Shown here: positions 28,101 to 63,490 of the stretch, piece by piece
Numbering within the stretch: the first letter of the stretch is position 1
Layout: the number at the start of each line of letters is the position of its first letter
Source of the DNA: Pisolithus tinctorius
Taxonomy: Eukaryota; Basidiomycota; Agaricomycetes; Boletales; Pisolithaceae
Direction: 5' to 3'
DNA: 64,000 nucleotides
Assembly (NCBI GenBank): GCA_024663395.1
Contig: JANFAH010000002.1
Span: forward strand, 1,612,001-1,676,000
The notes under the pieces: model-generated
What the model was told of the DNA's origin: nothing
Database searches by the model: none
The model's input: the letters and a program-made list of their open reading frames with translations, nothing else
Position numbers and translations under genes: made by a program

Positions 28101-28877
28101 ACTTACCTTGTCACGTGGGGGATCAAAGTCATCCTCAGGGAGATCTGGGAAGTGTGGAGGCATATCCTACAGAGGCATTTGGATCAGTGAATGTGAATGT
28201 GAATATCGATGGAGTTCTTACCTTGTCAGGTGGGGGATCAAAGTCATCCTCAGGGAGATCTGGGAAGTGTGGAGGTGTATCCTATGAAGGCATTTGGATC
28301 AGTGAATGTGAATGTGAATATCGATGGAGTACTTACCTTGTTGGCTGGTGTGTTGAGAGGAAGACCAGGTATACTTGGAGACATGTCCTATAGAAAAAAT
28401 TGGTGTCAGAGCATCAGAGCATCAGCATGGATGAATTGATGACATACCTCGTTGGCTGGATGACTGAAGCCTTCCTCAAGGAATGCTGGTGTGGGTGGGG
28501 GTACACCCTATGGTAGGCTTTGAAGTTAGTGCTGCTACATGAAAATAACTCAGAAAACTCACCATGTCAGCACTGCAAGCATGCTTCTGATGCCCAACAT
28601 GCCTGCAGGCATCTTCAACCATCTCAAGACACCTTTTTGCCATGGCCTGGAGAATGGCTACATGGCAAGCTGCAGTGGAAGTGGATTGCCTGGCAAAGTT
28701 GAGCCCCTCATAGGTTTTGGTAGATCGTAAATGTGCTTTCTCTTCTTCAGTGTCCACCTCATCAATATGACAGTAGAAAGTTGCCTTGGAGACTGCATGA
28801 GGGTGACTGAAGTTGTACTTGGTGCAGTTGCACATGTACCACACTGTTGATCCAAGTTCACCCATATTCAAAGCCAT
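25114..28877 (-). pseudogene. CACTA (En/Spm-like) tnp2 transposase, degenerate
   Basis: ATG at 28877. Read on the minus strand: an N-terminal STVWYMCNCTKYNFSHPHAV zinc-like motif; five micro-exons of Pro-rich repeats (see 28102-28331); MNFVAKLKNMSLNDSVSKLD; VISIEHDMCCNTCIAYTG; TTIPIGPQLQALY; DIILMVSIDGVQLYDSKESD; CWIYIWIIVN; HPGGFIPGPNKLKHLDSFLF; WNGMVGHSGKNGYHMYC; HYYPALLQPCDHCI; TDTMHLASNISDLLLPLWHG; YKTWEFQLYMFTLMP; KLIHGFQIMCQSTL; LPNGQIAWSAW; VCDYSTPDEDLLRLS. These are the tnp2 (transposase family 21) signatures. In-frame TGA codons stand at 27343-27345, 27013-27015, 25891-25893 and 25201-25203; the first three fall where the family has Arg. Missense changes such as Arg to Trp/Cys fit the same process. 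Confidence 0.85.
28102..28331 (-). repeat. 115-bp tandem duplication of a micro-exon plus intron
   Basis: Two copies with a period of exactly 115 bp (28102-28216 and 28217-28331). On the minus strand each holds one exon of about 60 nt encoding DxPPHFPDLPEDDFDPPxDK, a GTAAG donor at its end and an intron ending in TAG. Adjacent, more diverged micro-exons of the same size encode GVPPPTPAFLEEGFSHPANE, DMSPSIPGLPLNTPANK and NLPLHTPDVPDAILHLPNDE. All join at phase 0. Confidence 0.8.
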
Positions 28878-53455: not shown

Positions 53456-56400
53456 ATGGCTTCAACAGACGACGTTTCCCGCTGGCGAGCAAAGTTGGAA
53501 CGCCGTCCTCCGGGGCGTGATGGCCGTGATATCGTCTTCGCCAATCTGGCTAGGGCCCTCTACGAGAGATTCGAGAAAGAGCGTAACATCAACGACCTCA
53601 ACGAGGCGATCACTTTCCACCATGCTGCTTTGGAACTCCGACCCCTCGGGAATGACAATCGGGCTTTGTCACTCGGCTGTCTTGCCATTTGCTTTTCGAA
53701 GAGATACGACGCGCGGCGGGTACTTAATGACTTGGAGGAAGCCATCATCCTTGGACGGGCAGCGCTAGAGCTCCGTCCACTTGGGCATCCCGATCGCGCC
53801 GCTTCTCTCTACAATCTCGCTTGCGACCTCGGGGTGAGGTTCCAGAAACAAGCTGACATGCGCGATCTAGAAGAGATGATCGAGCTGCACCGTACAGCTT
53901 TGGAACTACATCCCTCTCAACATCCTCAGCGGTCCTCATCGCTCTGCCAACTAGCTATCTGTCTTTCGAGTAGATACGACAATCAGGACACAGTTGCCGA
54001 TCTGGAAGAAGCTGTGACACTCGGACGCGCCGCACTGGAGCTCCGTCCACCAGGACATCCTGGCCGTGGTGGAGTTCTCCATAATCTCGCTTGCGACCTC
54101 AGGAAGAAATTTCAGAGGCAAACCGACATACGCGACTTAGAGGAGGCGATTGAGCTTCTCCATGCAGCCTTGGAACTACGTCCCTCTGGACTCCCTCAAC
54201 GGTCCTCATCGCTCCATCAACTTGCTATCTGTCTTTCGGGTAGATACGACAATCGGGGAACAGTTACCGACCTAGAAGAAGCTGTGACGCTCGGACGTGC
54301 CGCACTGGAGCTCCGTCCAACAGGACATCCTAGTCGTGTCGTATCTCTATACAACCTCGCCTGCGACCTCGGGACGAGATTCAAGAAACAAGCTGACACA
54401 CGCGACTTAGAGGAGGCGATTGAGCTGCATCGTGCAGCTTTGGAACTACATCCTCCTGGACATCCTCAACGGTCCTCATCACTCCATCAACTTTCCATCT
54501 GTCTGTCGAGTAGATATGATAGTCGGAGAACAGTGGCCGACCTAGAGGAGGCTGTGATGCTCGGACGTGCTGCACTAGAGCTCCGTCCACAAGGGCATCC
54601 CGATCGTGGCAATTGTCTCAGTAGTCTCGGTACCACCCTCAGGAAGAAGTTTCAGAAACAAGAGAACATCGTCGAGTTGGATGAAGCGATCGAGCTGCAC
54701 CGTGCAGCTTTGCAACTCCGTCCCGCTGGACATCCTCAACGACCTTCATCGCTCCACAGCCTTGCTCTCTGTCTTTCAGATAGATATGACAATCAGAGCG
54801 TAGTTGCTGGCTCGAGAGAAACCGCGGCGCTTGGCCAGGTGGCACCGGCATTCCGTCCACCGGGGCATCCTGATCGTGGCCCAGCTGATCTGGACGAGGC
54901 TATCGTGCTCGAGCAGGAAGCCGTGCAGCTACTTACGCCCGGAGACCCTAGTTACGACATATCTCGGCGGTGTCTCACGGCCTATCTCCAAGTGAAGACC
55001 AGGTCACAGGTTGCTACACCACCCTCCAATACCTCACTTGCCGTCCACTTTGACATTAAGGAAGTCATCCATAATATTGCGTTTGAAACCCTCAAAGCCT
55101 CCCCGCCCAGGCTGCTCCACACGCTTACTGGCGTCCTATGCAATCGGGACGAACAGATATCCCATTTTATGGCCAGTCAGCAATACAATCAACTGCTGTC
55201 TTCGTGTATAACTTGCAACCGGGATGAGCGAATGAACCTCATCCGTACTGAAGTCTCAAGATACTTTCGGTTCGCCACACTTTCTCACCGCTGGGGCGAA
55301 GGCGAGCCATCGTTGCGCGACATTGAGGGCCGCCGAATATATGGTATGTCAGGAAGGCGGGGCTTGAGAAAGCTTCAAGCCTTTTGTGCTGCCGCCTGTG
55401 AGCTGGATTACCTATGGGCGTGGAGTGACACGTGCTGCATAGACAAAGGTAGCAGCGCCGAGTTTCAGGAAGCGATAGGATCAATGTTCGCGTGGTATCG
55501 ACACTCCTTCCTGACCATTGTCTACCTTTCTGACGTTCCTGATACCGGTTCAATTTGGAGGAGCGAATGGTTCAGACGTGGGTGGACCCTTCAAGAACTA
55601 CTAGCGTCCCGAAGTGTACTTTTCTACACCCAAACCTGGTCACTCTACAAGAATCTCACGTCTTCAAACCATAAAGCCGATGCAGCTGTACTGGAAGAGC
55701 TGGAGAGGGCAACCGGAATAGAATCTCGGTTCCTCACCAATTTTTCTCCGGGTGTGAATGATGCACGTTCGAGGCTGCAATGGGCATCGTTGCGTCGTAC
55801 CACCCGACCTGAGGATATTGCCTATTCACTTTTCGGGATCTTTAATATCCACCTACCGGTTCTGTATGGTGAATCTGCCGAGAATGCACTTGGCCGTCTC
55901 CTGGCCGAACTCATATCGCAGTCTGGAGACATCTCGATTCTGGATTGGACAGGAGAAGCGTCGCCGTTTCATAGCTGTTTTCCTGCTCACATCACTTCGT
56001 ACCAGAAGCTACCATTGCCTCTACTCCAACCTGCTGCAGAAGAACATGTGACAACAAGACTGGCGCCGAGGATGAGAGAGGAACCCACGTCGTCGTCACT
56101 ACAGACGTTGTATCGCTCACTTGCTAAGTCACCCCTCCCGCGATTTTCCAGTCACCGCCTTGCATTGCCATGCATCTCCTACGTTGCTACAGCGGTTCTG
56201 CGCAGAAGGGCAGATGCATCTGCACCGAGTTACACGTACAAAATCGAGGCATCCGGTCTGAAACCACTCGAAATTACACTGCCAAGCGAGTTAGAAAATG
56301 GTGCTCTGCAGCTCGTTCGTCCTTGGCACTCGAAGCTGCTTGGTCCATCAACCCAGCTATACTCCACGACTGAAGAGCAGCTACTTTTTACACTGGGGAG

Positions 56401-56539
56401 GCCGTTTAATGCTCTTTTGTTGAACGAACTACCTCACAACGAGTACAAAAGGATTGCATCTTCTACCTCTATCATTGCTCGGCCTTTAGACTCAGCCAGC
56501 ATTTTGCAAAACGAAGTTAGGACATTGGAGATTGTGTAG
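53456..56539 (+). CDS. TPR-HET protein 1 (heterokaryon-incompatibility type), 1027 aa
   Basis: One uninterrupted 1027-codon frame starting MASTDDVSRWRAKLERRP. Residues of about 45 to 490 form eleven 45-residue TPR-like units (for example DLEEAIELHRAALELHPPGH, then SSLHQLAICLSSRYDN). The HET domain follows: LSHRWGEGEPSLRDIEGR near residue 608, YLWAWSDTCCIDK near 650, FAWYRHSFLTIVYLSDV, EWFRRGWTLQELLASRSVLF near 705, and RRTTRPEDIAYSLFGIFNIH with LPVLYGES near 780. HET domains trigger cell death in fungal non-self recognition, usually cytoplasmic. Here the repeat array is N-terminal and there is no nucleotide-binding module, unlike HET-E. It is intact and intronless. Confidence 0.9.
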   Translation: MASTDDVSRWRAKLERRPPGRDGRDIVFANLARALYERFEKERNINDLNEAITFHHAALELRPLGNDNRALSLGCLAICFSKRYDARRVLNDLEEAIILGRAALELRPLGHPDRAASLYNLACDLGVRFQKQADMRDLEEMIELHRTALELHPSQHPQRSSSLCQLAICLSSRYDNQDTVADLEEAVTLGRAALELRPPGHPGRGGVLHNLACDLRKKFQRQTDIRDLEEAIELLHAALELRPSGLPQRSSSLHQLAICLSGRYDNRGTVTDLEEAVTLGRAALELRPTGHPSRVVSLYNLACDLGTRFKKQADTRDLEEAIELHRAALELHPPGHPQRSSSLHQLSICLSSRYDSRRTVADLEEAVMLGRAALELRPQGHPDRGNCLSSLGTTLRKKFQKQENIVELDEAIELHRAALQLRPAGHPQRPSSLHSLALCLSDRYDNQSVVAGSRETAALGQVAPAFRPPGHPDRGPADLDEAIVLEQEAVQLLTPGDPSYDISRRCLTAYLQVKTRSQVATPPSNTSLAVHFDIKEVIHNIAFETLKASPPRLLHTLTGVLCNRDEQISHFMASQQYNQLLSSCITCNRDERMNLIRTEVSRYFRFATLSHRWGEGEPSLRDIEGRRIYGMSGRRGLRKLQAFCAAACELDYLWAWSDTCCIDKGSSAEFQEAIGSMFAWYRHSFLTIVYLSDVPDTGSIWRSEWFRRGWTLQELLASRSVLFYTQTWSLYKNLTSSNHKADAAVLEELERATGIESRFLTNFSPGVNDARSRLQWASLRRTTRPEDIAYSLFGIFNIHLPVLYGESAENALGRLLAELISQSGDISILDWTGEASPFHSCFPAHITSYQKLPLPLLQPAAEEHVTTRLAPRMREEPTSSSLQTLYRSLAKSPLPRFSSHRLALPCISYVATAVLRRRADASAPSYTYKIEASGLKPLEITLPSELENGALQLVRPWHSKLLGPSTQLYSTTEEQLLFTLGRPFNALLLNELPHNEYKRIASSTSIIARPLDSASILQNEVRTLEIV
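53861..54940 (+). repeat. 270-bp TPR super-repeats, four in tandem
   Basis: Equivalent points recur at exactly 270-bp spacing: 53861, 54131, 54401 and 54671 (CGCGAyyTAGArGArr and its counterpart GTCGAGTTGGATGAAG). Each unit encodes 90 aa, two 45-residue TPR motifs of alternating type. Nucleotide identity between units is high, which suggests recent duplication or gene conversion. The paralogue at 61235 has one such unit. Confidence 0.85.
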
Positions 56540-57194
56540 ATAGTGATGGCGTTATGACATCCACAGCGCACGGGTAATATGTGTGTGGCAGGTTATTTAC
56601 AGCTATCCTTTGACTCGCACTCGACCCCGTTCTTGTTACTCGTCTCCCGCCTTCTGAGTGGCTCAGGTTACGAGAATGGTCACAGGGGTTATATTAATTT
56701 CAATGTACTCGCTGTGTTGGGTGTCCTTGGTTACCACTTGGCCCATTCCTTAGCCTCGTTTATCGAGCTTCCACACCTCCGTGCCGTTTTCAGGTTAGGA
56801 ATGCGAGGGAACACGAATCGATGACGAACTTTCCCAAACGACGCAGGCAGAGGTGTTCTCGTTTTGCTTATGGCGACTCCCTCGATGAATTCTGTCAAAC
56901 TTTTCACTCCGATACAAGGGTTGTTGAATGCCCCTCCACACCTGTGTCAAGGGTCAAGACAGCTTGGGCGGATGACACGGTTTCGCAAAGATAAACAGGT
57001 GCTAGTTATAGATGTCATCCTCAGATGTACTCGGTGGTCGAGAACGTGCTTGACGTTAATTGGCGAACACATGGAATGCTCGGAGAGATGAGAGTTAAGG
57101 CTACGCAGTCGTACGACTACTTTATCGTGTTTTTATGCTTATCGTGAGTTGTGATGAGAAGATATCAGATGCTGTTCTCTCACCACGCCAAATA
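56540..57194. other. 3' flank of TPR-HET gene 1
   Basis: The first about 100 bp resemble the 3' flank of TPR-HET gene 2 (63491 onward: shared TATGACATCCACA and TGGCAGGTT). The rest holds an 81-codon frame with hydrophobic segments (56579-56824) that I do not regard as a gene. Confidence 0.4.
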
Positions 57195-57458
57195 TTATCC
57201 ACCTGACACTGGTGGGATAATCGCCACCTCTTCCCCACCCTTGAGGTGGCAGGTCGCCGGTTCGTATACCATTTCTTCATTTACGCTCCATGTGCTGGTG
57301 GCCAGCACCTTGTCAAGACCCGTACCCGGGTAAAGTGAGTTGAGGTGAGACGCCAAGGATGAGAGGGGAAACGGCGTCATTGGGAGCGTCACCGTGTCCT
57401 CGTAGCGACCAGTAGCGGTGGACGCCCCAGCGAAGTAAAGAACTGTAATTTTGGCCAT
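57195..57458 (-). CDS. MOCS2A: Molybdopterin synthase small subunit (MOCS2A / MoaD-like)
   Basis: A single 87-aa exon starting MAKITVLYFAGASTATGRYE and ending GGEEVAIIPPVSGG. The ubiquitin-like fold pattern (ITVLYFAGAS, FPLSSLASHLNSLY, LKGGEEVAIIPPVSGG) and the C-terminal Gly-Gly, which is thiocarboxylated to donate sulfur, identify MOCS2A/MoaD. With the large subunit MOCS2B it converts precursor Z to molybdopterin in the cytosol. In humans both subunits come from one bicistronic gene; here no large subunit is nearby. ATG 57458 is preferred over the upstream in-frame ATG at 57581 because it gives the usual family length. It lies 100 bp downstream of the thiamine pyrophosphokinase gene on the same strand. 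Confidence 0.9.
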   Translation of the reverse strand: MAKITVLYFAGASTATGRYEDTVTLPMTPFPLSSLASHLNSLYPGTGLDKVLATSTWSVNEEMVYEPATCHLKGGEEVAIIPPVSGG

Positions 57459-57558
57459 GTCGTTACTTGTAGTAGATAGCTTTACAGTAAGTAGCAAGTA
57501 TCGACGACGATATTGTCCATTTTCGGTGCCTAATCCCAGACACGCCAGACAAGATACG

Positions 57559-58681
57559 TCAGTCCTTCTGAAGCTCCACACACCACCAGATCGGTCTTGA
57601 AGTATTGATCGTCACGAAAAATTCCCCAGGGACCAGATGGTTCGACGTGGAAACCAACCCATCTAACGATGATTCGGCCTCAGCTTGAAGAAGTCAGTAA
57701 GGGCACCATAGCAAGGATCGCCTTCGCGTACTTAGGTTCCAGCGAAGACCGGTGGTCGTCAATATCGTGGACTCGACTCCAACGGGTAGCAGTCCACACG
57801 TAGGACCCAGTATGTCGTGATCAATGCGAATACGATGTTGCCCCTTGGGGCGCTTGTTAGTACTAGCGCTACACGATCACACAATGTATACCTCGTCAAG
57901 TACCCAGGCAATATTGTCATCTGTGACCACGAACACCTTCTTTCGCGTCCGCCGCAGTTTGTGCAAGTACGAGAGAGTATGTACCGTCTGGTCCAATCTC
58001 CCTCCCAGCCCACCAAGGATGATGATTTCGTACTGCGTAACAGTCTTGCAATTGAGCAAATTTTGTCCAATAAAACTCAGAAAAGCCCACCACCAGATTT
58101 TCTGGTTTCTCCAGTTCTCGAATAGATTGAACACATTTCATTAGGTCTGTCGAATTTTGGTCCTGGTCTTGTATGACCGGAACGCCCTACGCGATACCGA
58201 GACGTGAAGAAGACTAAGAATTCAACATCGATAGTCAAACCTTGGAGATATAGTAATCCCGTACGTCGGTCCGCAAGGAGTCCAGGTCACCTTTAATCAA
58301 GTCCGGAACATACCTGCGATCCTGTCAGGTGAAGGAATCACAGTGGTTCAACAATAGCAAAACCCACGAGCAACGAAGATCGTCCGGAATGAGATCGAAC
58401 ACTCGGTTGGCACCTCCGTCTGCACAACAATGCCACGAACAAACGTTCCATAGTGTGTCCAGTAGATCCCGGGAGAATGGTTGGTTTAGGATGATCAACC
58501 CGCGTGCGACCGGCGGTGCGTCCAGGTTAGAAGGGTTTAGGAACGACACGTCCCAGTCTGTAATCCCAGGATCATTGCGTGCATAGAATAGTGTGCTTAG
58601 ACCTGCGCCCATGTCATCTCCAAGCACGTCTGCGACTTGTTTGGACTGCGTTCGGCGTCGGCCATTTGTTGGTATTCCCAC
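57559..58681 (-). CDS. THI80: Thiamine pyrophosphokinase with probable one-base frameshift
   Basis: Minus-strand exons: 58681-58368, 58313-58241, 58186-58094, 58044-57892, 57843-57732 and 57684-57559. Motifs: GLIILNQPFSRDLLDTLWNV, CADGGANR, YVPDLIKGDLDSLRTDVRDY, GVPVIQDQDQNSTDLMKC, YEIIILGGLGGRLDQTVHTL, VTDDNIAWVLDE, LGPTCGLLPVGVES, TTTGLRWNL, and STSNH...INTSRPIWWCVEL. The enzyme transfers pyrophosphate from ATP to thiamine in the cytosol. The last exon fits the family only if one base is removed from a run of four C (57658-57661, plus strand): TEAESSLDG is in one frame, LVSTSNH in the next. Either a sequence error or a real C-terminal mutation. The start is uncertain (58681 or an internal Met before DWDVSFL). 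Confidence 0.88.
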
Positions 58682-59242
58682 CTGGGCTTAGATTACACTG
58701 CGACGTCATAGCTGCCATGTAGCGCGCCGAAGTAACATGAACACACCGGGAATCGCTGCTGCAGTCGCCAGAGAGCGGATAATAGTATCAGACTATTAGC
58801 CTGTGCGGAAAAGGTGCCAGTGGCCCTAAATATCGACCCACAGTGACCGAGCATGCCAGTTTGTGAAGCAGCGCGCATGTGTGAGTTGGCACATCGAACG
58901 AACTCGAACACCCACGGGACCCAGTGGAACAACTGAACACGCTACATTGGTTGAAGGACGACGAAGTACGTCTAATAGTGCCGCAACTCCAGCCGCGCGC
59001 TCATTTTCTTGCAGATAGAAGCCCTCGGACGCTAGCTGTGCTAGAGGCTTTACAGTGCTCGGGCAGTGGGTACCTACCACTCACACTTTCGGTTACTCCA
59101 AACCGTGGTCGTCTTAGACCTGCTGCGGGCACGACGTGCTCCGGAAATCTCACACTACAGAGCAGGGCTTGCATGTGACGTCGACCGATGCCATGCCGTC
59201 TCCAAACCATTGGGGGTCGAGTAAGGTGAGACGAAGGAGGAT
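58682..59242. other. Spacer upstream of the thiamine pyrophosphokinase gene
   Basis: Probable promoter region of the kinase gene. An 84-codon plus frame (58924-59178) and minus shadows are present without motifs. No THI-box or other element was identified. Confidence 0.35.
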
Positions 59243-59590
59243 GTGGTAAAGGATCTCATTGAGAAAATGTATGTGGCATCCTTGCCTAGTGTCTGGCCTC
59301 CTGACGGATCCGTTTACATAGTTCAGATGGACTCAGTGGCTTTGCAGTCGCATGAAAATGTTCTCCACCTTCCCGCGATTTTTACGCTGTTCGCATCGTC
59401 ACTCACGTCTCGAGCCTTGGTCGCTCACCAGATGCCGACGACGACTGCGGAGAAGGAAATTATCCATGAGACAACCTCTTCCTCAAGCCCTATTGAGAAG
59501 CTGGCAATGACGTTCAATCGTTCAGCCAGTATCAATTCTGAGGAGGAATCATTCGAGGTATTTCACTCTCTGCACAATACACCATTTTGA
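59243..59590 (+). CDS. Hypothetical 115-aa ORF
   Basis: The frame contains SLPSVWPPDGSVYIVQMDSV, LPAIFTLFASSLTSRALVAH, and a Ser/Glu-rich tail. Composition looks plausible for a protein, but the start is arbitrary and no domain is recognised. A second frame at 59674-59859 (GYFYGHYQHSSEEGGNLFNA) may be related. It could be a decayed gene. Confidence 0.25.
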   Translation: MVKDLIEKMYVASLPSVWPPDGSVYIVQMDSVALQSHENVLHLPAIFTLFASSLTSRALVAHQMPTTTAEKEIIHETTSSSSPIEKLAMTFNRSASINSEEESFEVFHSLHNTPF

Positions 59591-60759
59591 GAAGAGGGTG
59601 TAGCTTACCATAATGCCCACCGAGCGTAATCACTAGTCTTGCGCACAGATCACCCGGACCTTACATTTGGGCAATGGGATACTTTTATGGACACTACCAG
59701 CATTCCTCTGAAGAGGGTGGCAACCTCTTCAATGCACCGGAAAAGTCAACCAAAAAGACGCTACTTCTGAACAAATTCCTTCGCCGGCTCCCCGGACAGA
59801 GTCTACTCTCATTCTGCTCCCTACTGGCAATTCTCGACCCCTACATTCTCTCTTTGTAGTGCTCGAAGGATCTCCTGTAAAGGTGAAAGAGCGTCTTCGT
59901 GTGATATCCATGCAATCATTTGTTTATTCCCGAGGTTCGTACGCAGCCGGTGAAACTGGCGAGACGTCGTCGGTGTAACAGTCTTCCCTCCGACATGGTG
60001 TACAAGACAGGCCAATCGCAACCCTATTCGTGGGGCCCTTAATACACGTTTCCCTACTTCTGAGTAGGTACGCTATACTGTTCTTGTGTCTTCTTGTCAC
60101 TTACTTTTGTTCTCCTCTGTCTCATGATTAGTGGTGAGAGTACTCGCAAATAATACATGTCTGGACAATCGAGTGCTTCACAATCACAGGCCAGGGGCAT
60201 CTAAGATGGCAAGCAGTGCGACAGGTATATGAACCGACCCGAGCAACTGCGGCATACTATTGATATGTTTGGTGGGCTCTTCTACCTGTGCACAGCCCTT
60301 GGTATTTACCCTATGATGCCCTTCTCTGCACATGCAGCACAAGGCAAGTGCGCATACTCCGAAGTCGCTGAGGTGGTGGGCAACGCTAAGAGTATATAGA
60401 GTCTGTCACTTTTATAGAAAGCGTTTTCGAGGGGACGAATGCGACTTCATATGCAGCAGCTTCAAGTGCAACCGGGGAGGCGCCATGTATGAGCAGCACT
60501 ATGAGAGTGCTGAACGAGTGCTTCAGGCGAAGGGCGGCGCCTATGCGGTAGCTTTGAATTTCGCTGACAATAGCTCAACCAGCGACGAAATCAGTGAGTG
60601 ACCATGAAAAATTAGCGCCTGCGGTTCAGTAATGAGGACCGTTTCACACGGAAATCCGCTACTGCAGCCTCGGAACGCAGGTTCTGAGAGGAGAACCGAT
60701 TAGGAATTCGCTACTGTTTGAGATTAGTGGCGGCGTCAGGCGTGCGGGAACATGTTCAG
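59591..60759. other. Spacer with a dispersed repeat
   Basis: At about 60315-60390 the sequence (CCCTTCTCTGCACATGC...TACTCCGAAGTCGCTGAG) resembles 3210-3290 (CCCTTCTCCGCACACAC...TGCTCCCGAGTTGCTGAG). A short element in two places is likely. An 89-codon frame (60332-60601) covers it, with no motif. Confidence 0.35.
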
Positions 60760-61234
60760 GCCGGATCCCTTTTCGCACGTCGTAGCCGCCTGCCGCCTTT
60801 CTCTCGTACAGCCGTCCACCAACCGTTCGGCTACTGGTGAACTGCTCCCCATCACCAATCTGCATGACTTGCTCAAGAAGCACAGCCATTTTCCCTTTCG
60901 CTTTTCCAACCAACTTGCTTCTCACTTGCCGGTGAGGATCCTACTGGACCATCGTTGCGTTATATGCGCTGACCACTATGAAGTGCTATCGGCGCTTTGC
61001 TCCCACCGATACACAAGATTGCCTCTTGTATGCTCTGTGTCTTTACCTGTGGGTTTTTTCGCGTTGCTTAGTTAGCCTCGCTGATTTGGATAGCATTTTG
61101 ACCCTCAAAATTGCCTACCTCGCTCGTTCGTCGATTCTAAGGATAACGTATGGTCCTACTGTTCTTGTCTTATTGCCCCTGATTACCGAACCTGACATGA
61201 AGGTGCAACCGTTTCCACTGCGTACCGGCATTCG
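60760..61234 (+). repeat. Duplicated upstream region of the TPR-HET genes, copy 2
   Basis: Counterpart of 52975-53455, just before TPR-HET gene 2. The same ordered blocks are kept. Confidence 0.6.
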
Positions 61235-63490
61235 ATGGAATCGACAGACGAGGTTTCCCGCAAGCGGGCAGAGTTGAGACGTTGTCCCCCAGGACGTCGT
61301 GGCCGGGATGACGCCCTCTTCGACCTGGCGTGGGTCCTTTACGAGAAATTCAAAAAAGAGCGTAGAATCGACGACTTGAATGAAGCCATCACACTACTCC
61401 GTGATGTTTTGGAACTCCGACCACTAGGGAATCACAAGCGGGCCGTCCCACTCAACAGTCTTGCTGTTTGTCTTTCAAGTAGATATGACGAGCAGGGGGA
61501 AATCAACGACTTAGAAGAAGCTATAATGCGTGGACGTGCAGTACTTGAGCTCTGTCCACCAGGGCATCCCGATCGTGGCGCAGTTCTTTACGATCTGGCA
61601 TGCGACCTCAGGACGAGGTTTATGCAAAAAGCTGACATGCATAACCTGGATGAAGCAATTGGGCTGCACCGTGCAGCTTTGGACCTACGTCCCCCTAAAC
61701 ATCCGCATCGGCCTTTATCGCTCCATGGACTTGCTCTCTGTCTTGTGGACAGATTTGACAATCAGGGAGTAGTTGCTGACTTCAGAGAAGCCGAGACGGC
61801 TGGCCGTGCAGGACTAGTAGTCCGGCCACCTGGGCATCCTGATCGTGGCACAGCTGATCTGGACGAGGCTATCGTGCGCGAGCAAGAAGCCGTACAGCTA
61901 CTCATACCCGAAAATCCTTTTTACGACTCATTTCGGCGCTCACTTACATCCTACCTCCAAAAGAAGATCCGGTTACAAGCTCCTACACCGTCTTTTGATT
62001 CTCCACCTGTCGCCAGCTTTGACATTACGCAAATTGTCCGTAATGTTGCACTTGAAACACTCAAAACCGCCCCGCCCAGGCTACTGCACACAGTTACTGG
62101 CACCCTGTGTAACCGAGACACACAGATATCACATTTTATGGGCAGTCAACAGTATAATCAGCTGCAGTCTTCGTGCGTAACGTGCGACCCGGATCAACGA
62201 ATGAAACTCATCCATACCGAAGTCTTGAGATACTTTCGGTTCGTTAAGCTTTCTCACCGCTGGGGTGAAGCCGAACCATCATTACGTGACATCGAGGGCC
62301 GCTCAATATATGATATGCCACCAAAGGGAGGCTTGAGAAAGCTCCAATCCTTCTGTACTGTTGTTTGCGAGTGGGATTACCTATGGGCATGGAGCGACAC
62401 GTGCTGCATCGACAAACACAGCAGTGCGGAGGTGCAAGAAACGATAGGATCAATGTTTGCGTGGTATCGACGGTCTGCCTTGACTATCGTATACCTTTCT
62501 GACGTTCCCGATACTGGTTCGTTTGGGAACAGCGAATGGTTCAAACGTGGGTGGACGCTCCAAGAACTACTGGCTCCTCGAGCTATACTATTCTACACCC
62601 AGAACTGGTTACCTTACAAGAACCTCGTATCTTCGAACCACAAAACCGATGCCACTGTGCTGGACGAACTGGAGAGAGCAACTGGAATAGAATCTCAGTT
62701 CCTCACCAACTTTTCACCAGGTACGGATGACGCACGGTCGAGGCTGCAATGGGCATCGTTGCGTCGTACCACCCGGCCCGAGGATATCGCCTATTCACTT
62801 TTCGGGATCTTTCATATCCACCTCCCCATTCTGTATGGCGAATCTGTTGAGAATGCGCTTGGCCGGCTTCTGGCCGAAATCATATCACAGTCTGGGGACA
62901 TCTCGGTTCTGGATTGGACGGGAGAAGCGTCGTCGTACCACAGCTGTTTCCCTGCTCAGATTTCTTCGTATCAAGAACTGCCATTGCCTCATGTGCCGAT
63001 GGAGTCTTCGTCGTGGCTGACAGACCAACCCGCGACGTCGCCCGCAGCGCTACGAACCCTCTATCGCTCACTCTCTAAATCGCCCCTTCCGCGATTTCTC
63101 AGTCGTCGCCTCACGCTGCCATGCATCGCCTACGCTGTTACAGCGGTTCAGCGGAGAAGGACAAATCCATCTGCATGGAGTTACACGTACAGAATCCAGG
63201 CATCTGGTCTTAAACCGCTCGAGATTACACTGCCAAGCAAGTTAGAAAATGGTGCTCTCCAACTCGTTCGCCCTTGGCACTCGAAGCTACTTGGTCCATC
63301 GGCCGAGTTGTACACCACGACCGAAGAGCAGCTGCTTTTTACGCTGGGAAGGTCATTTAACGCTCTTCTATTGATCGAAGTACGTCAGAACGAGTACAAA
63401 CGGATTGTATCTTTTACCCCCATCACTGCTCAACCTGTAGATTCGGCCAGCATTCTGCGAAGCGCAGTTAGGATATTCGATATTGTGTAG
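61235..63490 (+). CDS. TPR-HET protein 2, 751 aa
   Basis: One uninterrupted frame starting MESTDEVSRKRAELRRCPPG. It has five TPR-like units (DDLNEAITLLRDVLELRPLG; NDLEEAIMRGRAVLELCPPG; NLDEAIGLHRAALDLRPP; a degenerate ADFREAETAGRAGLVVRPPG; ADLDEAIVREQEAVQLL) against eleven in protein 1. The HET domain is complete: LSHRWGEAEPSLRDIEGRS near residue 338, YLWAWSDTCCIDKHSSAEV, EWFKRGWTLQELLAPRAILF near 435, RRTTRPEDIAYSLFGIFHIH. The C-terminal part (LKPLEITLPSKLENGALQLV) is nearly identical to protein 1. Same strand, 4.7 kb after protein 1 ends. Intact. Confidence 0.9.
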   Translation: MESTDEVSRKRAELRRCPPGRRGRDDALFDLAWVLYEKFKKERRIDDLNEAITLLRDVLELRPLGNHKRAVPLNSLAVCLSSRYDEQGEINDLEEAIMRGRAVLELCPPGHPDRGAVLYDLACDLRTRFMQKADMHNLDEAIGLHRAALDLRPPKHPHRPLSLHGLALCLVDRFDNQGVVADFREAETAGRAGLVVRPPGHPDRGTADLDEAIVREQEAVQLLIPENPFYDSFRRSLTSYLQKKIRLQAPTPSFDSPPVASFDITQIVRNVALETLKTAPPRLLHTVTGTLCNRDTQISHFMGSQQYNQLQSSCVTCDPDQRMKLIHTEVLRYFRFVKLSHRWGEAEPSLRDIEGRSIYDMPPKGGLRKLQSFCTVVCEWDYLWAWSDTCCIDKHSSAEVQETIGSMFAWYRRSALTIVYLSDVPDTGSFGNSEWFKRGWTLQELLAPRAILFYTQNWLPYKNLVSSNHKTDATVLDELERATGIESQFLTNFSPGTDDARSRLQWASLRRTTRPEDIAYSLFGIFHIHLPILYGESVENALGRLLAEIISQSGDISVLDWTGEASSYHSCFPAQISSYQELPLPHVPMESSSWLTDQPATSPAALRTLYRSLSKSPLPRFLSRRLTLPCIAYAVTAVQRRRTNPSAWSYTYRIQASGLKPLEITLPSKLENGALQLVRPWHSKLLGPSAELYTTTEEQLLFTLGRSFNALLLIEVRQNEYKRIVSFTPITAQPVDSASILRSAVRIFDIV

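Follow-up and report, generated by a model that had tools for sequence, protein, structure and literature searches.

TPR-HET genes of Pisolithus tinctorius: members of a large family of candidate NOD-less sensor-effector proteins

The window analysed here, a stretch of 64,000 nucleotides (C2:1612001-1676000) of the genome of the root-symbiotic mushroom Pisolithus tinctorius (92.5 Mb, 221 contigs), contains two genes that encode an array of TPR units followed by a HET domain (Table 1). Both open reading frames, those of protein 1 and protein 2, are open and intronless where the first-pass annotation had placed them. That annotation had suggested that they may be an undescribed receptor pair for non-self recognition, a view that is not supported. 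A ThiS/MoaD-like gene and thiamin pyrophosphokinase-like exons lie between the two genes, which therefore do not form an adjacent pair, and two more relatives are found just beyond the window, at 1678565 and 1684457, so that proteins 1 and 2 are two of at least four linked relatives within a large family.

Table 1. Features of the two TPR-HET genes and of the interval between them (positions in the window).
Feature	Position	Strand	Basis or remark
Protein 1 gene, TPR-HET, 1027 aa, intronless	53456..56539	+	ORF, Pfam, AlphaFold2 model
TPR array (aa 12-517) of protein 1, with ten 45-aa units, a 26-aa truncated unit and a degenerate last unit	53489..55006	+	
Super-repeats S1-S3 (three of 270 bp, aa 102-371), missing from protein 2	53759..54568	+	78-83% mutual nt identity
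HET (PF06985) match of protein 1, aa 606-693	55271..55534	+	Pfam
C-terminal beta-rich domain of protein 1, aa 880-1026	56093..56533	+	AlphaFold2 model; nearly invariant columns in family alignment
Small ThiS/MoaD-like protein, encoded in the interval that separates the two TPR-HET genes	57195..57581	-	
Thiamin pyrophosphokinase-like exons, between the two genes	57877..58681	-	One exon above Pfam cut-off, one below
Protein 2 gene, TPR-HET, 751 aa, intronless	61235..63490	+	P. orientalis orthologue: P0002
TPR array (aa 12-247) of protein 2, with four 45-aa units and two degenerate ones	61268..61975	+	
HET (PF06985) match of protein 2, aa 336-423	62240..62503	+	Pfam

The HET domain was recognised in both proteins well above the Pfam gathering score of 22.5 (40.5 bits, E 4e-10 in protein 1; 41.1 bits, E 3e-10 in protein 2), and TPR_10/TPR_12 were matched in both, with TPR scores slightly below the curated cut-offs in protein 2. 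Neither protein contains a NACHT or NB-ARC domain (NOD) detectable by Pfam at E 0.1, or a CHAT domain (PF12770) detectable by Pfam. In the AlphaFold2 model of protein 1 (mean pLDDT 86), paired TPR helices (6-517) are followed by a low-confidence linker (519-532), an alpha/beta HET module (aa 535 to about 825) and the beta-rich C-terminal domain. As the TPR helices extend to residue 517 and the HET module begins at 535, this model leaves no space for a NOD between them. The N-terminal TPR array joined to HET without NACHT, as first annotated, is thus confirmed by both Pfam and the predicted structure; the model of protein 2 is similar, at lower confidence (76). The TPR part resembles OGT, LGN and kinesin light chain (Foldseek and VIA-align). 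These structure searches returned TPR matches and barely tested the HET part, for which comparison by sequence with solved structures gave no credible match either (best E 0.58). Within the HET part, the residues S-H-x-W and W-T-x-x-E are conserved in all 68 aligned proteins (protein 1 and 67 of the 120 listed), with E714 of protein 1 and E444 of protein 2 being what we take to be the TIR glutamate.

With protein 2 as query, at least 60 HET-bearing places were found in the P. tinctorius genome, haplotype copies included (60 scored out of 788 first-look candidates). Of these, 27 fall within 0.95 Mb (C2:1.58-2.53 Mb), or roughly one per 35 kb. Stop codons interrupt the matched stretch at 5 of the 60 places, 4 of them in this cluster, and the remaining 55 have none. 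HET as a family gave 150 matches in the genome (150 of 371 candidates scored), mostly in shorter frames, and CHAT gave 3 (all 3 candidates scored), at C2:3702784, C41:218414 and C81:113858. The assembly is described as comprising allelic primary and secondary scaffolds, and heterokaryon incompatibility-related proteins as being among the genes most commonly near transposable elements or repeats in Pisolithus (PMC10066745). Indeed, the contig pairs C25/C77, C8/C19 and C3/C102 are allelic. No second allele of protein 1 or protein 2 was apparent among the 60 scored places, where the match that ranks after protein 2 itself is 71% identical. Two further places, C31:146474 and C160:3806, are identical 4485-bp copies (100%), probably an uncollapsed duplicate scaffold.

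When the HET part was compared with the protein database, 3596 of 7998 scored candidates matched, and the named ones among the best 120 all come from Pisolithus, Scleroderma, Suillus or Rhizopogon. For the TPR part 2234 of 7992 scored candidates matched, and the best 120 of these divide into 53 with HET, 56 with CHAT, 11 with neither and none with both; a profile of the HET module also matches 6 of the 11 rows with neither domain and 1 of the 56 CHAT rows. Among these best 120, the named HET-bearing rows are from Pisolithus, Scleroderma and Astraeus, and many rows are metagenome proteins; the named CHAT rows include Boletus, Suillus, Paxillus, Tylopilus, Melanogaster, Mycena, Coprinopsis and others, with two ascomycetes and one bacterium. 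Pisolithus and Astraeus belong to the Sclerodermatineae, as does Scleroderma. The TPR-CHAT proteins of Agaricomycetes (PF13374/PF13424 with PF12770) share the N-terminal 45-aa array, with 34-50% amino acid identity to that of protein 1 in the 56 listed rows, and differ in carrying the caspase-like CHAT protease as C-terminal effector where the Pisolithus proteins carry HET. Spacing by 45 aa is found at 687 of 729 steps between units in the CHAT proteins and at 581 of 693 in the HET proteins. The plain reading of these comparisons is that one kind of sensor array may serve two effectors. Conversely, the same C-terminal HET module occurs behind other sensor repeats in P0072 of Suillus hirtellus (42% identity over 92% of the query), which likewise has no NOD among the 25 shown of its 42 Pfam matches. 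There the N-terminal array consists of WD40 repeats instead of TPR, a second sensor type on this HET module.

The TPR arrays are built from 45-aa units of two alternating types, which produces the visible period of 90 aa or 270 bp. Self-identity of residues 1-520 of protein 1 reaches 0.56 (lag 90) and 0.57 (lag 180), whereas lags 20-199 average 0.077 (SD 0.067), a periodicity far beyond chance, and Tandem Repeats Finder reports a period of 270 at 53806-54796 (3.7 copies, 78% matches). Protein 1 has the layout S0-[S1-S2-S3]-S4 followed by degenerate units, and protein 2 the layout S0-S1 followed by the corresponding degenerate units. Since S0 of protein 1 pairs by position with S0 of protein 2 (73% nucleotide identity) and S4 with S1 (73%), the difference between them consists of S1-S3. 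The size gap of 276 aa accordingly corresponds, as first proposed, to 270 aa (six 45-aa units, or three 90-aa super-repeats) with 6 aa elsewhere, and the HET matches start exactly 270 aa apart, at aa 606 and aa 336. The initial counts of eleven and five units come close to those obtained here, namely ten full and two degenerate units in protein 1 and four full and two degenerate units in protein 2. The period of 270 bp also stands; the high identity attributed to the repeats was overstated. S1-S3 of gene 1 are 78-83% identical to one another at the nucleotide level and 73-81% at the amino acid level, with a synonymous divergence (dS) of 0.41-0.80, values that rule out near-identical, concerted repeats. 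The HET blocks of genes 1 and 2 differ by a dS of 0.62, so that the super-repeats are of roughly the same age as the divergence of the genes themselves.

These values also bear on which array length is the older. The super-repeats of protein 1 are about as similar to middle units of other genes (up to 81% amino acid identity) as they are to one another; S2, for example, is 81% identical to P0037 and 73% to its own neighbours S1 and S3. Moreover, P0007 has the unit layout of protein 1, with an array of 548 aa in both, and lies outside the protein 1 clade in the first tree. Together, these observations speak against a recent repeat expansion in protein 1. The arrays of its near relatives (protein 2, L002, L003 and L005/L006) measure 270-278 aa, and because protein 1 has the array length of the outgroup P0007, the short arrays look like losses. 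The AU test does not reject one array loss among the short relatives (p-AU 0.16); its likelihood is 17.4 log units below that of the free tree, which groups protein 1 with the short-array relatives with weak support near protein 1 (88/57). Protein 2 has thus probably lost three super-repeats, and protein 1 would retain the long array.

Protein 2 is a stable, conserved member of the family. It is 98.0% identical to its P. orientalis orthologue P0002 over 751 aa, without a gap and at the same length (98.75% in the first 240 aa), and of the 15 differences only two are located in full units, at unit positions 32 and 35, with none at the six ligand-contact positions defined below. Equal length and unchanged contact positions argue against the fast-evolving recognition repeats first suggested for this protein, whose array is invariant in repeat number and nearly so in sequence. 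Such invariance is what the first-pass annotation had named as refuting its reading, and it is seen here between two species rather than between strains. The neighbouring gene product L003 and its orthologue P0005 are also equal in length (93.1% identity). Where complete arrays of two named species could be paired and the HET parts were 89% identical or more, array length was the same in four of five pairs and differed by 88 aa in the fifth (P0024/P0026); in the metagenome protein pair P0077/P0104, with HET also at least 89% identical, the arrays differ by 92 aa. Within P. tinctorius, arrays are equal in all three allelic pairs for which the whole array was read (L005/L006, L017/L019 and L036/L040), and in two pairs read in part the alignments are free of internal gaps and the open frames match in length (L018/L020, 1215/1215; L007/L021, 1533/1533). 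An apparent duplicate or allelic pair of TPR-HET matches of equal score, C12:4695-6869 and C55:27323-29497, has open frames of 859 and 1343 aa, and in another apparent pair, C77:68441/C25:90109, the C77 copy contains a stop. Close paralogues of the cluster differ by 45 aa (L038/L042; L012/L015), by 135 + 26 + 19 aa (L039/L042) or not at all (L012/L013). Arrays change in quantal steps, mostly on the time scale of paralogues. In L039/L042 the HET part is 97.1% identical in nucleotides (dS 0.040) and the TPR part, with its unequal arrays, 85.7% (dS 0.229), a pattern suggestive of gene conversion in the effector half or of array exchange.

Nonsynonymous changes in 12 disjoint gene pairs cluster at unit positions 12, 15, 19, 22 and 26, which lie together on a single side of the first helix. 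Pooled pN/pS over all unit positions is 0.57, so that positive selection on the array as a whole was rejected. The face chosen post hoc gave an omega of 1.01 (0.75-1.40), or 0.99 with positions chosen on other pairs, and we relied on a contact set from the literature. TPR co-crystals with peptide have contacts at canonical positions 2, 5, 6, 9, 12 and 13 (PMC1261162), which our own alignment places at unit positions 15, 18, 19, 22, 25 and 26 (canonical position = unit position minus 13, via the conserved L-L-A-L pattern). Pooled over six paralogue pairs, dN is 0.265 at contact positions and 0.091 at the rest, a ratio of 2.9 (2.3-3.6), and omega is 1.07 (0.77-1.58) versus 0.55. The interval of the dN ratio lies above 1 in four of the six pairs, and L038/L042 shows no excess (1.03). 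By pair, contact omega is 3.90 (1.83-12.74) in L039/L043, 1.07 in L032/L033, 0.85 in L014/L016, 0.38 (0.16-0.82) in L015/L035 and 0.35 in L038/L042; it is undefined in L012/L013, with 6 nonsynonymous and 0 synonymous changes.

Several points weigh against reading these values as diversifying selection on receptors. Pooled contact omega is about 1 and not above it, which relaxed constraint could explain; it is clearly above 1 in only one pair of six (L039/L043) and clearly below 1 in L015/L035. Synonymous divergence is also raised at contact positions (0.247 versus 0.167), and where the two arrays of a pair are unequal, part of the alignment may be wrong. Five allelic pairs are without contact enrichment (their 320 contact codons hold 3 nonsynonymous changes; dN ratio 0.60, 0.00-1.45), and protein 2 shows no diversification at all. 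Hypervariable concave positions are, furthermore, described as general to TPRs (PMC1261162), and are hence a sign of diverse ligands and not, in themselves, of immunity. At the concave positions, for which the first-pass annotation had proposed a test for positive selection, the comparisons show faster change among paralogues, and neither a pooled omega above 1 nor any change between protein 2 and P0002. Taken together, the pattern among paralogues seems receptor-like, short of proof of positive selection.

One further pair, outside the window, may represent old alleles. The TPR-HET genes L008 (C77:49983-53564) and L023 (C25:49820-53413) occupy matching places on C77 and C25 and are 85% identical in amino acids, the next best match to L008 being 60%. 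Nucleotide identity per kb is 95.6-99.8% over 9 kb of 3′ flank; inside the gene it is 94.3-94.9% near the 3′ end and declines to 89.0, 86.8 and 85.5% toward the TPR part. The HET part has a dS of 0.16 and the TPR part one of 0.27, compared with 0.004-0.13 in five other allelic pairs, and the ligand-face dN ratio is 3.0 (1.9-4.5). The protein match runs in one piece (2-1194) over 3594 bp, within open frames of 1684 and 1605 aa, and because it is unbroken we attribute a 270-column gap in the nucleotide alignment to overhanging ends. The allelic pair C19/C8 served as a control: identity in its flanks drops as low as 92.9% per kb with no such gene present, other profiles remaining at 96.9% or more. 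L008 and L023 are a probable allelic pair and a candidate balanced locus, for which, on the 3′ side compared, either old balanced alleles or differential loss of paralogues would give the observed pattern. In the window itself, a 115-bp tandem repeat (28101-28341, 2.1 copies, 93%) is unrelated to the TPR-HET genes.

The likeness to HET-E and HET-D drawn in the first-pass annotation extends to the coupling of HET with a repeat array, and not to near-identical or fast-evolving repeats. The HNWD NLRs HET-E, HET-D and HET-R of Podospora anserina likewise couple HET to a superstructure-forming repeat array, with an N-terminal HET domain, a NACHT domain and WD40 repeats of about 85% internal amino acid identity that undergo concerted evolution (PMC4986451). 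In proteins 1 and 2, HET is C-terminal, there is no NOD, and the repeats are TPRs whose super-repeats are old and, at 73-81% amino acid identity, fall below the 85% internal identity over 100 aa taken to mark the HNWD type. Parallels are also offered by the TPR NLRs of P. anserina, e.g. Pa_2_10340, which have variable sites on concave helices and length changes by whole repeats (PMC4986451). These contain NB-ARC or NACHT, other effectors, and repeat numbers that vary between strains, in contrast to the allelic pairs of P. tinctorius, which are equal where read. HET domains of other fungi are known to induce cell death, and direct fusion to WD40, TPR or ANK repeats is common among protease sensors of fungi (PMC12881547).

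The explanation we favour, and consider rather probable, is that proteins 1 and 2 are members of a large Sclerodermatineae family of TPR-HET proteins acting as intracellular, NOD-less sensor-effectors. The N-terminal superhelix of 45-aa units would bind a ligand in its concave groove, and binding, or altered binding, would free or cluster the C-terminal TIR-related HET domain, which, by analogy with HET proteins elsewhere, would trigger local death of the hyphal compartment. The family may have originated when HET was joined to the kind of TPR array that precedes the CHAT protease in other fungi; the architecture is seen directly, and its direction of change is our conjecture. Between paralogues, array length is seen to shift by 45 or 90 aa at a time through in-frame recombination, and some clustered members would diversify their ligand-facing residues, which do change faster. 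Protein 2 is a conserved member, probably with a fixed partner. That the two genes form an allorecognition (het) receptor pair, with repeat number setting specificity as in HET-E/HET-D, now seems very unlikely. The combination of HET with repeats, the difference of exactly three super-repeats and the precedent of Podospora TPR NLRs with repeat-number polymorphism and selected concave sites (PMC4986451) speak for such a pair. The age of the repeats, the constancy of protein 2 between two species, the equal allelic arrays of other members and the lack of an allele of either gene among the scored places speak against it.

A possible alternative, to which we give limited credence, keeps proteins 1 and 2 as conserved helpers, or guards of a fixed host protein, and assigns non-self reception (allo- or xenorecognition) to the fast-evolving members. 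It would account for the 2.9-fold excess of ligand-face dN among paralogues, the omega of 3.9 (1.8-12.7) in L039/L043, the divergence of L008/L023 toward the TPR part with its raised ligand-face ratio, and the conservation of protein 2. It has to contend with there being one divergent pair only, compared on its 3′ side, in which the haplotigs differ by about 22 kb between L008/L023 and the next shared genes and the frames differ in length (1684 versus 1605 aa), so that differential paralogue loss is possible; the C19/C8 flanks show, in addition, that identity can drop to 92.9% per kb without such a gene. Rather unlikely, in our view, is an ordinary repeat-protein family without an immune role, in which a TPR scaffold and HET would act in signalling or development and concave variability would reflect drift after duplication. 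Such a family would fit the pooled ligand-face omega of about 1, the active birth and death implied by stops at 5 of 60 places, and the small fraction of HET genes that control incompatibility, given as 5 of 125 in Podospora (PMC10197012). It fits poorly with a framework under constraint (omega 0.55) in the same genes in which one helical face is not, and with 55 of 60 places having no stop inside the match. Overall, the sequence comparisons make the TPR-HET family a good candidate for NOD-less recognition by effector swap and do not support the reading of proteins 1 and 2 as a receptor pair. It is tempting to speculate further, and only tentatively, that the Sclerodermatineae exchanged the CHAT domain of an old TPR sensor for a TIR-like HET and expanded it to dozens of NOD-less receptors, some with diversifying ligand faces and at least one (L008/L023) with balanced alleles, and thereby gained a basidiomycete form of non-self recognition without NLRs.

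No description of the TPR-HET family was recognised in the open-licence literature searched. In a survey of fungal NLRs, a complete lack of HET is reported for those of basidiomycetes, with HET present there in other architectures (PMC9815663). The TPR-HET family represents one such architecture, large and receptor-like, in which sensor repeats run straight into HET, and it supplies named candidate genes for non-self recognition in a mushroom. The natural effector swap, with CHAT or HET on the same kind of sensor, makes the role of the sensor testable separately from that of the effector.

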